From: Luteibacter flocculans | GTDB taxonomy: Bacteria; Pseudomonadota; Gammaproteobacteria; Xanthomonadales; Rhodanobacteraceae | Reading direction: 5' to 3' | Length of the DNA: 64,000 nucleotides | NCBI RefSeq assembly: GCF_023612255.1 | Contig: NZ_CP063231.1 | Span: forward strand, 416,001-480,000 | Part shown: positions 27,085 through 31,694 of the stretch, one piece after another | Position numbering within the stretch: the first letter of the stretch is position 1 | Layout of the letters: the number at the start of each line of letters is the position of its first letter | Made by a program: the position numbers and the translations under genes | The notes under the pieces: generated by a model | Seen by the model: the letters and a program-made list of their open reading frames with translations, nothing else | What the model was told of the DNA's origin: nothing | Databases searched by the model: none

Positions 27085-27975
27085 ATGGGTCACCAGCAAC
27101 AAGACGTCTACTTCGTACCGAGCAAGAGCTACTGGCCCATCGTGGCGGCGGTCTCCATGTTCGTCACCGTGTTCGGTGCCGCGCACTGGCTGAACGCGCA
27201 ACCGGGTCAGGGTGGCTTCGGCAAGCCGCTGTTCTGGGTCGGCATCGCCATGATCCTGGGCATGTTCTTCGGCTGGTTCCGCTCGGTGATCAACGAGTCG
27301 CTGGCGGGCAACTACAACGGCCAGGTGGACCGCTCGTTCCGCATGGGCATGATGTGGTTCATCTTCTCCGAGGTCATGTTCTTCGGCGCGTTCTTCGGCG
27401 CACTGTTTTACGCGCGTCTGTTCGCGGTGCCCTGGCTCGGTGGCGAAGGCCACGGCGTGCTGACCCACCAGTTCATCTGGCAGGGATACGAAGCGGCATG
27501 GGGTGCCAGCGGTGGTGGCGGTCCCGAGAAGATCGGCGGCTCGTTCCAGACCATCCCGGCGTGGGGCCTCCCGCTGCTTAACACGCTGATCCTGCTGTCG
27601 TCCGGCGTCACCATCACCATCGCGCACCACGCGCTCAAGGCCGGCAACCGCAAGACGCTGCTGATCGGTCTCGGCGCCACGGTGCTGCTGGGCTGCCTGT
27701 TCCTGTGGTTCCAGGCGCACGAGTACGCTGAAGCGTACGAGCACTTCAACCTTACCCTCGGCAGCGGCGTGTACGGCGCCACGTTCTTCATGCTGACCGG
27801 CTTCCACGGCATGCACGTGACGCTCGGCACGATCATGCTCGCGATCATCTGGGTGCGCTGCGCGAAGGGCCACTTCTCCAAGGACGATCACTTCGGCTTC
27901 GAAGCGGTCGCGTGGTACTGGCACTTCGTCGACGTGGTCTGGCTGGCGCTGTTCCTGTTCGTCTACGTGCTCTGA
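27085..27975 (+). CDS. coxC: cytochrome c oxidase subunit III
   Basis: A 296-residue integral membrane subunit with seven hydrophobic helices. Family features include MGMMWFIFSEVMFFGAFFGA, the EYAEAYEHFNLTLGSGVYG segment and a FHGMHVTLGT motif, ending AVAWYWHFVDVVWLALFLFVYVL. Subunit III stabilises proton uptake by subunit I. It follows the small peptide gene by 32 bp, with a ribosome site (AGAAATCCACGGGAAACC region) that is weak. It is the last gene of the first half of the cox locus; a strong hairpin follows. Confidence 0.96.
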   Translation: MGHQQQDVYFVPSKSYWPIVAAVSMFVTVFGAAHWLNAQPGQGGFGKPLFWVGIAMILGMFFGWFRSVINESLAGNYNGQVDRSFRMGMMWFIFSEVMFFGAFFGALFYARLFAVPWLGGEGHGVLTHQFIWQGYEAAWGASGGGGPEKIGGSFQTIPAWGLPLLNTLILLSSGVTITIAHHALKAGNRKTLLIGLGATVLLGCLFLWFQAHEYAEAYEHFNLTLGSGVYGATFFMLTGFHGMHVTLGTIMLAIIWVRCAKGHFSKDDHFGFEAVAWYWHFVDVVWLALFLFVYVL

Positions 27976-28037
27976 CCGATATCCACGGCGCGGTCGATCT
28001 GGCGACGCTCGTTCGATACATACGAAGTTGCCTTTTG

Positions 28038-28062
28038 GAGAGCCCGCCGCAAGCGGGCTCTC
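28038..28062 (+). terminator. hairpin after coxC
   Basis: A perfect 10-bp stem (28038-28047 with 28053-28062) around a CGCAA loop lies about 60 bp after coxC. It probably ends the coxBAC transcript, although no T-run follows on this strand. Confidence 0.65.
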
Positions 28063-28110
28063 TGGCTATCTAGACTCCCAACTTACTTCGCTACTTTTTC
28101 TCGTGCCAGT

Positions 28111-28132
28111 TTCGGGCGTCCTTGGTCGGGGA
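28111..28132 (+). repeat. direct repeat, left copy
   Basis: TTCGGGCGTCCTTGGTCGGG plus two bases recurs at 29073-29094 with one mismatch in 22, in the same orientation, bracketing about 960 bp. Confidence 0.75.
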
Positions 28133-28238
28133 TGCCGCGTATCGTTGGTCCTCGACGCGGCCCCATGTCCAAGCGGCTTCGAACTACGGGATCGGGCGTG
28201 CTCGGTTTCGCCATCGCGTTCGTCTCGCCGGAGGCGCC

Positions 28239-28306
28239 GGGGTGGGCTTCTCTGCGCTCAAACAGCGTTTGCAGAGCGAACGAACTCCCTCAGAGAGGCC
28301 CACCCC
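28239..28306. other. long interrupted inverted repeat, possible structured RNA or element
   Basis: Bases 28239-28254 pair with 28291-28306 over 16 positions with one mismatch. Inside, a CAAAC/GTTTG palindrome forms a second arm. A further 6-bp hairpin follows at 28309-28330. The structure has no obvious gene to terminate, being 180 bp past the coxC hairpin. Confidence 0.55.
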
Positions 28307-28370
28307 GACACCTCTCCCATTGCTGAGGTGCCGTGAGGGGCGAGCAAAGCCATGCGCCGCGATAGTCTTG

Positions 28371-28399
28371 GTAGGAGCCGCTACAGCGGCGAGAAAACC
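28371..28399. repeat. single REP element
   Basis: GTAGGAGCCGCTACAGCGGC followed by GAGAAAACC is the same family as the REP inside 13797-13825 (read on the minus strand), with a GCCGCTAxAGCGGC palindromic core. Confidence 0.75.
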
Positions 28400-28511
28400 T
28401 GGCGACACGGTTCACTTCTTACACGACGGCGCCATGTAGCAAGAGTCAGTACGGCTACATGAAGGCGTAGCAGGGAAGGTGGCCTTGCTCCAGGACGCCA
28501 GCAATTAACGG

Positions 28512-28772
28512 TTATCTTTCGCGACAACGGTCGACCATCCGGAATAGATACCAGCCGAGTGGCCCAGCGATCAGGCCAGTCGATTCGGCGACTAGAAAAA
28601 AGCGAAGGAGCCGATCCGGCGTCAGCGGATCTCCATTCACTGCCGCTGAAATGCAGTGAGATGCGAACATTATGGTTCCGAACCACACAATGCCGACGCG
28701 CCAGGTATACATCCACAACGACTGTGTCACGGAAAGCCATCCGCTCAGCTTTGCGGCGCGCGGCCCAATCAC
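28512..28772 (-). CDS. small two-helix membrane protein, translationally coupled
   Basis: Taken from the GTG at 28772, this gene encodes 86 residues with two hydrophobic helices (about VGIVWFGTIMFASHCISAAV and LLRFFLVAESTGLIAGPLGW) joined by a short polar loop, ending in an Arg/Glu-rich tail. The GTG overlaps by four bases (GTGA) the stop of a Gly-rich frame upstream, the arrangement of coupled genes. The frame stays open up to an ATG at 28874 with an excellent AAAGGAG site, but residues encoded there are Arg-rich and look like a shadow. I do not recognise a family; an immunity-type protein is one guess. Confidence 0.5.
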   Translation of the reverse strand: MIGPRAAKLSGWLSVTQSLWMYTWRVGIVWFGTIMFASHCISAAVNGDPLTPDRLLRFFLVAESTGLIAGPLGWYLFRMVDRCRER

Positions 28773-28874
28773 CGGTTCGCTGCTCGCAGTTCGATGCCAC
28801 AATTTACCGCCGCACCGAGCATTCCGAGGCTGCCTCCAAATACCGCGCCTGCGAGCCCGCCGATCGGTCCGCAT
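28769..28874 (-). pseudogene. possible Gly-rich (GxxxG) small peptide gene with a frame break at its start
   Basis: An AAAGGAG ribosome site stands seven bases before the ATG at 28874. One nucleotide after that ATG, a shifted frame reads GPIGGLAGAVFGGSLGML, then GAAVNCGIEL, and ends at a TGA at 28769-28771. The pattern of small residues resembles glycine-zipper or class II microcin mature peptides. That frame has no start codon of its own before an upstream TAG, so either a one-base indel has broken it, the assembly has an error, or the resemblance is chance. Confidence 0.35.
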
Positions 28875-29072
28875 TTGATTTCTCCTTTGCTGTTTGGAAG
28901 GACTAATGTGCTTCGCGGAGAGCCGGTTCGAACGGTCGACCGCTATGCCGAGTCTGCACTGCCAGAATTCGCCACTGGCAGGCTTGTCCTCCTCTATTTT
29001 GTGTAAGGACCGGTCGCTTCCCGATCGTCCGAGGACGAAGACCTGACCCGTTTAAATCGATCCCATGCTAGG

Positions 29073-29094
29073 TTCGGGCGTCCTTGGTAGGGGA
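29073..29094 (+). repeat. direct repeat, right copy
   Basis: This copy of the 28111-28132 repeat ends nine bases before the GH31 start codon and overlaps its ribosome site region (AGGGGAGG). Confidence 0.75.
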
Positions 29095-29102
29095 GGCTCC
29101 GC

Positions 29103-31694
29103 ATGACGATGTTTCGCCTGATCGCGCTCGCGATGTTCGCGTGCGCCATCACCGCACCGGTGCATGCCGCCGATGCGCCTGTGGTCAGCGGGCAGGTCCG
29201 CTTCACGGTGCTGACGCCACGCGTGATCCGCATGGAGTATTCGCCGCGCGCGCAATTCGAAGATGCACCATCACTGGTCTTCGCCACACGCACCGCGGCG
29301 CCGGAGACGAAAGCCCAGGTCACGCATGAAAAGGGCTGGCTCGTCATTCGCACCGACGTGCTCACGCTGCGCTACAAGGAAGGCTCGGGCGCCTTCACGG
29401 CGGACAACCTCAGCATCGCGTCGAAGACGACGAAGCCTGCCATCGACTGGCATCCTGGTCTCAAGGAAACCACCAACCTAGGCGGCACCGCGCGCACGCT
29501 CGATCAGGTGGATGGCGATCGCCACGCCTCGGACAACTCGCTGCTCGACCTTGGCGATGGCCTGCTCTCGCGCGATGGTTGGCATGTCGTCGACGACACC
29601 GGCAGCTATGTTCTCGGCAACGAGACATTGCCGTGGGTACATCGCCGAACCCGTCAGGACTGCACCGATCAGACCTTCTTCGGTTACGGCCATGACTATG
29701 CGGCCGCGCTGAGCGATTTTGCTCAGGTGGCTGGCCGCGAGCCGCTGCCGCCGCGTTATGCCTTCGGGTACTGGTGGTCGCGCTATTGGAACTACAGCGA
29801 CGACGAACTGCGCGATCTCGTCGCGCATTTCAACCGCTACGGCATTCCGCTCGATGTCCTGGTGATCGATATGGACTGGCACCGTACCGACGGCCTTTCA
29901 TGGGTTCACCCCAAGAAAGACGTCAACGGCCAGAGCATGGGGTGGACGGGTTATACGTGGAATCGCAGCCTGTTTCCCGAGCCGGGGCGCCTGCTGCACT
30001 GGCTCGGCGAACAAGGCTTGAAGACCACGCTGAACCTGCACCCGGCCTCAGGCATCCTGCCGCATGAGGATGCGTACAAGGATTTCATGGCGGCGCTGAA
30101 GGCCGATCCGGCGAAGCCGCTGCCGTTCGAAGCCGCCGATGCCAACTATATGGCTGCGTATTTCCGCACCGTACTCGATCCGTTGAACGCGCTGGGCGTG
30201 ACCTTCTGGTGGCTCGACTGGCAGCAGTGGAAGGAATCGAAGGCCATGCCCGGGCTGTCCAATACGTGGTGGCTCAACCACGTGTTCTTTACCCACATGC
30301 GGGAAGAGGGCAAGCGGCGCGCGTTGATTTACCACCGCTGGGGCGGGCTCGGTAATCACCGCTATCAGGTCGGTTTCTCGGGCGACTCGATCATTTCGTG
30401 GGCATCGCTGGCATTCCAGCCGCGTTTCACGGCCACTGCATCCAATGTGCTCTACGGCTATTGGAGCCATGACCTTGGCGGACATACGTTCCGCGACGAA
30501 AGCGATCCCGCCACGCGTCGCATCGATCCGGAGCTTTACATTCGCTGGATGCAGTTCGGTGCATGGAGCCCGATCATGCGCACCCATACCACCAAGAATC
30601 CCGACCTCACGAAGGAGCCGTGGCGCTTCGCACCCGCCGAGTTCGATGCGCTGCGCGATACGGTGCTCACGCGCTACACCTTCCTGCCCTATGCCTACAC
30701 CATGGGCAGGAAGGCATACGACACCGGCATCTCGCTCGTGCGTCCCATGTACTACGCGTGGCCGGACAATGACGAGGCGTACAAGGCCAGCGGTGAATAC
30801 ATGTTTGGCGACGACCTGCTCGTCTCACCCGTGACGTCGGCCGGCGATGCCAACGGCTTCGCCACACACGCCACCTGGCTGCCGATGGGCGACTGGTTCG
30901 ACACCAACGACGGTAGCGTCGTGAAGGGCGGTCGCACGATCCAGGCCCGCTATCGACTCGACGAAGTGCCCGTGTTCGCGCGTGCCGGAGCGATCGTTCC
31001 CACCAACACCGATCCGACGGTGAGCGTCTCGCACGATGGTGGTGGACGCACGTTACGCGTCTATCCCGGCGGCAACGGAAAGGCCGAACTGTATGAGGAC
31101 GCGGGCGACGACGAAGGCTATCGCGGCAACGCGTTCGCACGCACGGCGCTCACGTCGGAGTGGTCGAAGCACGCGCTGCGCGTGCACGTCGCGCCGCGTG
31201 TCGGTGGCTACCCCGGCATGCCGACCTCACGCCAGTGGTCCGTGGACGTGCCCGCCGTCGCGATGCCGACCCGCGTGACGGTGGACGGCGTGACACTCAC
31301 CCGTTCCGATGAAACGAAGCCCGGCACGTGGCGTCTCTCCGGCAAGGACCTCACGCTGCATGTCACGCTCCCCGCGCACGGCTACGACCAGGCGCAGACG
31401 GTCGAAGTGACATGGCCCGCCAACGCACCCGACGTCAACGGTCTGGTTGGGCAGATGCGTGACGTGCGCGCCGCGGTGGCCTGGCTCAAGGCGCACTGGC
31501 AAGACGTGAACGGCGTCTCCGACGAGGTCTCGCTCGCCGCACAAGCCGACTTGCTGATCGACTACCACCCCGACCAGTTCGCCGAGGAGGTCGCCGCATT
31601 CCGCAAGCGCTACGCCGCGCTGGACACGTCGCTGGAACAAGGCGGCGTACCGGCCGACATGCGCACGACGTTCAAGGCGAAGCTGGGTCGTTGA
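29103..31694 (+). CDS. secreted glycoside hydrolase family 31 alpha-glycosidase
   Basis: An 863-residue exported enzyme with a signal peptide ending APVHA (about residue 22), an N-terminal beta-sandwich, the GH31 barrel (about 225-560) and C-terminal beta domains. The likely nucleophile Asp is D372 in FWWLDWQQW and the acid/base Asp D428 in GFSGDSIISW; LYGYWSHDLGGH and RWMQFGAWSPIMRTH are further family motifs. GH31 includes alpha-glucosidases and alpha-xylosidases; the exact specificity is not evident. A GGGGAGG ribosome site supports the ATG at 29103. No transporter, regulator or receptor gene accompanies it, and it sits inside an insertion that splits the cox locus. Confidence 0.93.
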   Translation: MTMFRLIALAMFACAITAPVHAADAPVVSGQVRFTVLTPRVIRMEYSPRAQFEDAPSLVFATRTAAPETKAQVTHEKGWLVIRTDVLTLRYKEGSGAFTADNLSIASKTTKPAIDWHPGLKETTNLGGTARTLDQVDGDRHASDNSLLDLGDGLLSRDGWHVVDDTGSYVLGNETLPWVHRRTRQDCTDQTFFGYGHDYAAALSDFAQVAGREPLPPRYAFGYWWSRYWNYSDDELRDLVAHFNRYGIPLDVLVIDMDWHRTDGLSWVHPKKDVNGQSMGWTGYTWNRSLFPEPGRLLHWLGEQGLKTTLNLHPASGILPHEDAYKDFMAALKADPAKPLPFEAADANYMAAYFRTVLDPLNALGVTFWWLDWQQWKESKAMPGLSNTWWLNHVFFTHMREEGKRRALIYHRWGGLGNHRYQVGFSGDSIISWASLAFQPRFTATASNVLYGYWSHDLGGHTFRDESDPATRRIDPELYIRWMQFGAWSPIMRTHTTKNPDLTKEPWRFAPAEFDALRDTVLTRYTFLPYAYTMGRKAYDTGISLVRPMYYAWPDNDEAYKASGEYMFGDDLLVSPVTSAGDANGFATHATWLPMGDWFDTNDGSVVKGGRTIQARYRLDEVPVFARAGAIVPTNTDPTVSVSHDGGGRTLRVYPGGNGKAELYEDAGDDEGYRGNAFARTALTSEWSKHALRVHVAPRVGGYPGMPTSRQWSVDVPAVAMPTRVTVDGVTLTRSDETKPGTWRLSGKDLTLHVTLPAHGYDQAQTVEVTWPANAPDVNGLVGQMRDVRAAVAWLKAHWQDVNGVSDEVSLAAQADLLIDYHPDQFAEEVAAFRKRYAALDTSLEQGGVPADMRTTFKAKLGR

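Follow-up and report, generated by a model that had tools for sequence, protein, structure and literature searches.

A probably decayed class II microcin-like cassette with a broken toxin gene and a retained putative immunity gene in Luteibacter flocculans

The locus between positions 28,512 and 28,874 of a 64,000-nucleotide stretch of the Luteibacter flocculans chromosome (the window) is, in our judgment, probably a decayed, acquired class II microcin-like cassette, in which the toxin gene is dead and a putative immunity gene has been retained. That the peptide was toxic, that its partner gives immunity, that the genes are expressed, and that selection still acts on the retained gene are our inferences. 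The locus is made up of the following features:

28882..28887, minus strand: ribosome binding site (AAGGAG) of the former toxin gene, read from the sequence, with comparable sequence preceding ATGCG in the paralogue and in relatives
28872..28874, minus strand: former toxin start codon (ATG), which has come into the frame of the immunity gene
28870..28872, minus strand: likely deletion junction, the GCG common to ATGCG (paralogue start) and GGCGGACC (paralogue codons 47-49)
28769..28873, minus strand: what is left of the Gly-rich toxin frame (34 codons and a TGA stop), equivalent to residues 47-79 of the intact paralogue
28512..28772, minus strand: intact 86-codon ORF with a GTG start and TAA stop, encoding a putative two-helix membrane immunity protein
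28512..28874, minus strand: 120-codon fusion ORF, consisting of 34 Arg-rich out-of-frame residues followed by the 86-residue immunity protein

The elements that an earlier note on this DNA had described were confirmed on the minus strand: the ribosome binding site, the ATG at 28874, the Gly-rich frame shifted by one base, and the GTGA shared with the gene of an 86-residue membrane protein. The Gly-rich frame, which starts one base after the ATG and runs from 28873 to 28772, encodes CGPIGGLAGAVFGGSLGMLGAAVNCGIELRAANR; its TGA stop (28771-28769) overlaps the GTG start of the 86-codon ORF as GTGA (28772-28769). Translation from the ATG at 28874 gives one ORF of 120 aa, with residues 1-34 rich in Arg and the last 86 corresponding to the membrane protein. 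A promoter and terminator scan returned a single weak internal site, and a search of 27900-29200 against Rfam produced no match.

An intact paralogous pair is encoded on the same chromosome, 3.1 Mb from the window locus (G000:C1:3577388-3577899). Searching with the 86-aa protein identified a second copy in the window genome at G000:C1:3577639 (E 1.3e-21), and the ORF directly before it encodes a typical double-glycine precursor of 79 aa, MRELTSPEIASVSGGRLKVPGACSRATLLSNTGVAALGGGITGLITGGPLVGLGGAIFGGSMGALSAAVSCGIALREAR, with the leader MRELTSPEIASVSGG. As in the window, the stop codon of the precursor gene overlaps the start of its partner as GTGA, and the partner shares 54% identity with the 86-aa protein over 69 residues (E 4e-24). 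The window Gly-rich frame is identical to the last 32 residues of the precursor at 21 positions (66%); tblastn of the paralogue on the window aligned the frame at 67.7% identity over 31 aa (E 1.9e-11), and the precursor also matched it in the genome search (E 2.9e-7). The whole precursor matched the window genome at two places only, the paralogue itself and the window locus. There was no tblastn counterpart of the first 46 precursor residues near the window locus, and looking for the missing N-terminal half, both upstream and across the whole window, gave only chance-level matches.

Differences between the two Gly-rich frames are distributed over codon positions 1, 2, and 3 as 9/7/23, which departs from equal shares (chi-square ~11.7, 2 d.f., p ~0.003, calculated by hand). 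This third-position bias is the pattern expected of a frame that would once have been translated. Because of the bias and the match to the paralogue, we consider the window Gly-rich frame to be a formerly real coding frame and the Arg-rich reading a by-product, as the earlier note had supposed. The note also suggested a search of relatives for an uninterrupted version with a double-Gly leader, which was found in the paralogue and in further relatives.

The paralogue and several relatives begin with ATGCG; across the junction the window has the sequence ATGCGGACC, and the presumed deletion ends share GCG. Counted from the A of the ATG, the first well-matching codon (GGA, Gly48) begins 141 nt on in the paralogue and 4 nt on in the window; approximately 137 nt are therefore missing relative to the paralogue, a figure measured against that copy, while the true ancestor may have had another length. 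A deletion of this kind is likely, as the GCG at both ends resembles deletions at short homologies and the absence of the N-terminal part is consistent with a loss of ~137 nt. As 137 cannot be divided by three, the toxin codons no longer follow in phase from the ATG, which instead reads into the immunity gene. A third of possible deletion lengths would produce the same fusion, so the fusion is no proof of selection. The N-terminal leader with a GG/GA site that characterizes class II microcins is absent from the window copy, both at 28874 and upstream.

The frame problem sits exactly at the ATG, where the earlier note had supposed a single-base indel or sequencing error in a short Gly-rich peptide gene that is complete in all other respects. 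We find this hardly credible: the intact relative is 79 aa long with a leader and N-terminal half, and what is missing here is ~137 nt. The paralogue has 47 codons before the matching part, leader included, which are absent from the window, and every full-length relative has a leader and a length of 73-89 aa. It is very unlikely, too, that the strain truly has two intact pairs and that the assembly wrongly lost part of one toxin gene. The genome is a single contig rated 100% complete and there is no long repeat at the junction. The two copies also differ at ~1/3 of residues, which makes a mix-up between them during assembly unlikely.

The bacteriocin/immunity-like layout proposed in the earlier note is well supported by the intact paralogous pair, the GTGA overlap, and the double-Gly leaders of relatives. 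The paralogue has an N-terminal leader with a GG/GA cleavage site, in which M1, L4, V12, and G14 are invariant across five peptides. It scored 23.9 bits against Pfam PF10439 (Bacteriocin_IIc; E 4.3e-5), which is below the curated cut-off of 27.1 bits, and a six-frame search of the window genome gave no match to Bacteriocin_IIc. Its partner ORF, which overlaps it at GTGA and has two hydrophobic segments, is by layout a putative adjacent immunity protein. A separate locus of the window genome (~C1:3077540-3081340) encodes a microcin-like gene, an HlyD-type membrane fusion protein (MFP; P0015), and a C39-peptidase ABC exporter (P0016, Peptidase_C39 4.9e-34 plus ABC domains). This exporter lies ~0.5 Mb from the paralogue, not adjacent to it, and could export the intact paralogous peptide.

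As a separate observation, an apparently complete microcin-like locus of the window genome (L045 6541-11476) encodes a GG-leader peptide beginning MRDLTHEELACVSGG, an MFP, and a C39-ABC exporter. A second GG-like peptide, beginning MRNLTYSECNFIAGG, is encoded at L045 11213 in the microcin-like locus.

Across 233 genomes of the family and 398 genomes of the order, searches identified related pairs, each a leader peptide with its small membrane protein, in G006, G028, and G045, and probably in G003, where the leader-like stretch ends in GR, not GG. The pairs in G006 and G045 adjoin a C39-type ABC transporter and its likely MFP. In G159 (L010 1354-1620), a leader-like stretch, MEALKKTVWIVVNGG, is cut short by a stop codon. 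The Gly-rich body comes after it in a different frame and lacks a start, and the immunity-like membrane ORF downstream of the broken peptide is intact. G159 may thus represent a second, independent toxin loss, with a tentative leader assignment.

Six further genomes (G026, G221, G235, G367, G422, and G451) gave weak matches to the immunity profile with no leader-type Gly-rich partner among their ORFs, and these matches look like other two-helix proteins. A peptide match in G013 was discarded, as it lies inside a large autotransporter-like protein. Separately, the immunity-like gene of G006 opens with four tandem MVT units (MVTMVTMVTMVT; L008 1759-1794), a possible slippage-prone start.

An AlphaFold model of the 86-aa protein places helices at residues 19-46 and 52-85 with a mean pLDDT of 84.9, from an alignment of only seven sequences. 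Hydropathy peaks agree with this helical hairpin and a two-helix membrane protein, and the conserved residues and hairpin fold are kept. The immunity-like proteins had no meaningful family match in Pfam or NCBIfam, the 86-aa protein had no relative in the genome contigs collection, and the paralogous immunity protein had no match in the plasmid collection. The window therefore holds an intact homologue of a putative immunity protein with no functional cognate toxin beside it. Because a truncated toxin adjoins it and a complete pair is present elsewhere in the chromosome, the 86-codon gene is probably an orphan immunity gene.

The window cassette lies within a segment missing from one congener and is flanked by a direct repeat:

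27980..29041, no strand assigned: segment in whose place congener G002 has 63 unrelated bases, in its matching interval between coxIII and GH31
28099..28142, plus strand: left copy of the direct repeat (44 nt, 80%) on either side of the cassette
29061..29104, plus strand: right copy of the 44-nt direct repeat, reaching from just ahead of the GH31 gene into its start

Homology to G002 stops at window position 27979 and restarts at 29042. The DNA of the other congeners ceases to match at the coxIII stop and shows no GH31 similarity beyond it, and the exact window site is comparable in G002 only. The paralogue segment was absent from the matching site in all nine syntenic congeners. Close relatives of the 86-aa protein and its paralogue were found in none of the congeners, and close relatives of the precursor were lacking from most. 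Since both cassettes are absent from the congener sites that could be compared and mostly without close relatives there, they were probably gained by transfer, with loss in the other congeners as the alternative.

The surroundings of the cassette have further features of their own. A GH31-type glycosidase gene (29103-31694) lies downstream of coxIII, and in G002 it is directly beside coxIII. A 24-nt inverted repeat (88% complementary, arms 36 nt apart) adjoins the cassette at 28231-28314. At 28367-28403 there is a short, REP-like dispersed repeat of the GTAGGAGCCGCTACAGCGGCG type, with ~20 further partial copies in the genome.

We propose that the ancestral cassette would have encoded a Gly-zipper-rich peptide with a double-glycine leader and, downstream with a GTGA overlap, a small two-helix protein of the inner membrane to protect the producing cell. 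Relative to the paralogue, ~137 nt would then have been lost in an internal deletion, and with them the leader, its cleavage site, and the N-terminal half, leaving no toxin that could be exported. As the deletion fused the frames, the immunity protein could start either at the toxin ATG, giving a product from the toxin ribosome binding site with a 34-residue cationic extension, or at its own GTG. Most likely, the 86-aa ORF is now an orphan immunity gene that either still protects against the sibling or related microcins or is being lost. The orphan may be an active shield or a silent relic, and we lean towards a shield given the intact ORF, the ribosome binding site, and the predicted fold.

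The relic variant of this explanation, with a dead toxin, an immunity ORF that is simply not yet broken, and a locus without present function, is a real possibility, though we do not expect it. The toxin is plainly broken, and the pair is absent from congeners and hence dispensable. Against this, the 86 codons remain open with a normal start and stop behind an intact ribosome binding site, and the conserved residues and hairpin fold are retained. We are doubtful that the deletion was favoured for disarming the toxin and placing immunity under the toxin ribosome binding site as a stand-alone shield with a cationic extension, and that toxin loss with the shield kept recurs in the family. Improbable as well is a role for the Gly-zipper membrane peptide and its partner in signalling or autolysis, not as a bacteriocin pair. 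Gly-zipper profiles are weakly similar to one relative, and gonococcal Nap peptides with GG motifs mediate autolysis (PMC11798529), but the leader consensus, the C39-ABC exporter beside relatives, and the GTGA-overlapping membrane protein form the usual bacteriocin layout (PMC9746304, PMC2761928).

Collectively, these findings describe a microcin-like toxin/immunity family outside Enterobacterales whose immunity-like proteins belong to no Pfam or NCBIfam family, with one copy apparently caught after toxin loss while its putative immunity gene is intact. The locus also shows how annotation can report a 120-aa hypothetical protein whose Arg-rich N-terminus is spurious. Recent work on orphan immunity genes describes it as not known whether they come about through the loss of a toxin or the gain of immunity (PMC12546727); having one intact and one disarmed copy in the same genome makes this question testable.

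The paralogue and its relatives resemble the class II microcins of Enterobacterales, such as MccV, in their GG/GA leader, in export by a PCAT and MFP, and in the small membrane immunity protein nearby (PMC9746304), although the paralogue matched the MccV Pfam model at an E of only 0.95 and the window copy is without a leader. The mcbABCI locus of Moraxella catarrhalis also combines a short double-Gly peptide gene, a small gene overlapping its 3' end, and an MFP and ABC exporter, and the downstream mcbI gene overlapping mcbC was shown to confer immunity (PMC2761928). The likeness is one of layout, and mcbABCI is complete and active with adjacent exporter genes, whereas both cassettes of the window genome are without local exporter genes and the window toxin is broken. 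An orphan immunity gene, the weapon lost and the shield kept, is a known kind of case: E. coli plasmids carry orphan microcin and colicin immunity genes, some of them beside heavily truncated toxins and others where the toxin is absent (PMC12546727). Unlike those plasmid orphans, the window gene is chromosomal and lies outside Enterobacterales, in a genome that retains an intact paralogous pair, and the start of its former toxin gene is fused to the immunity frame.
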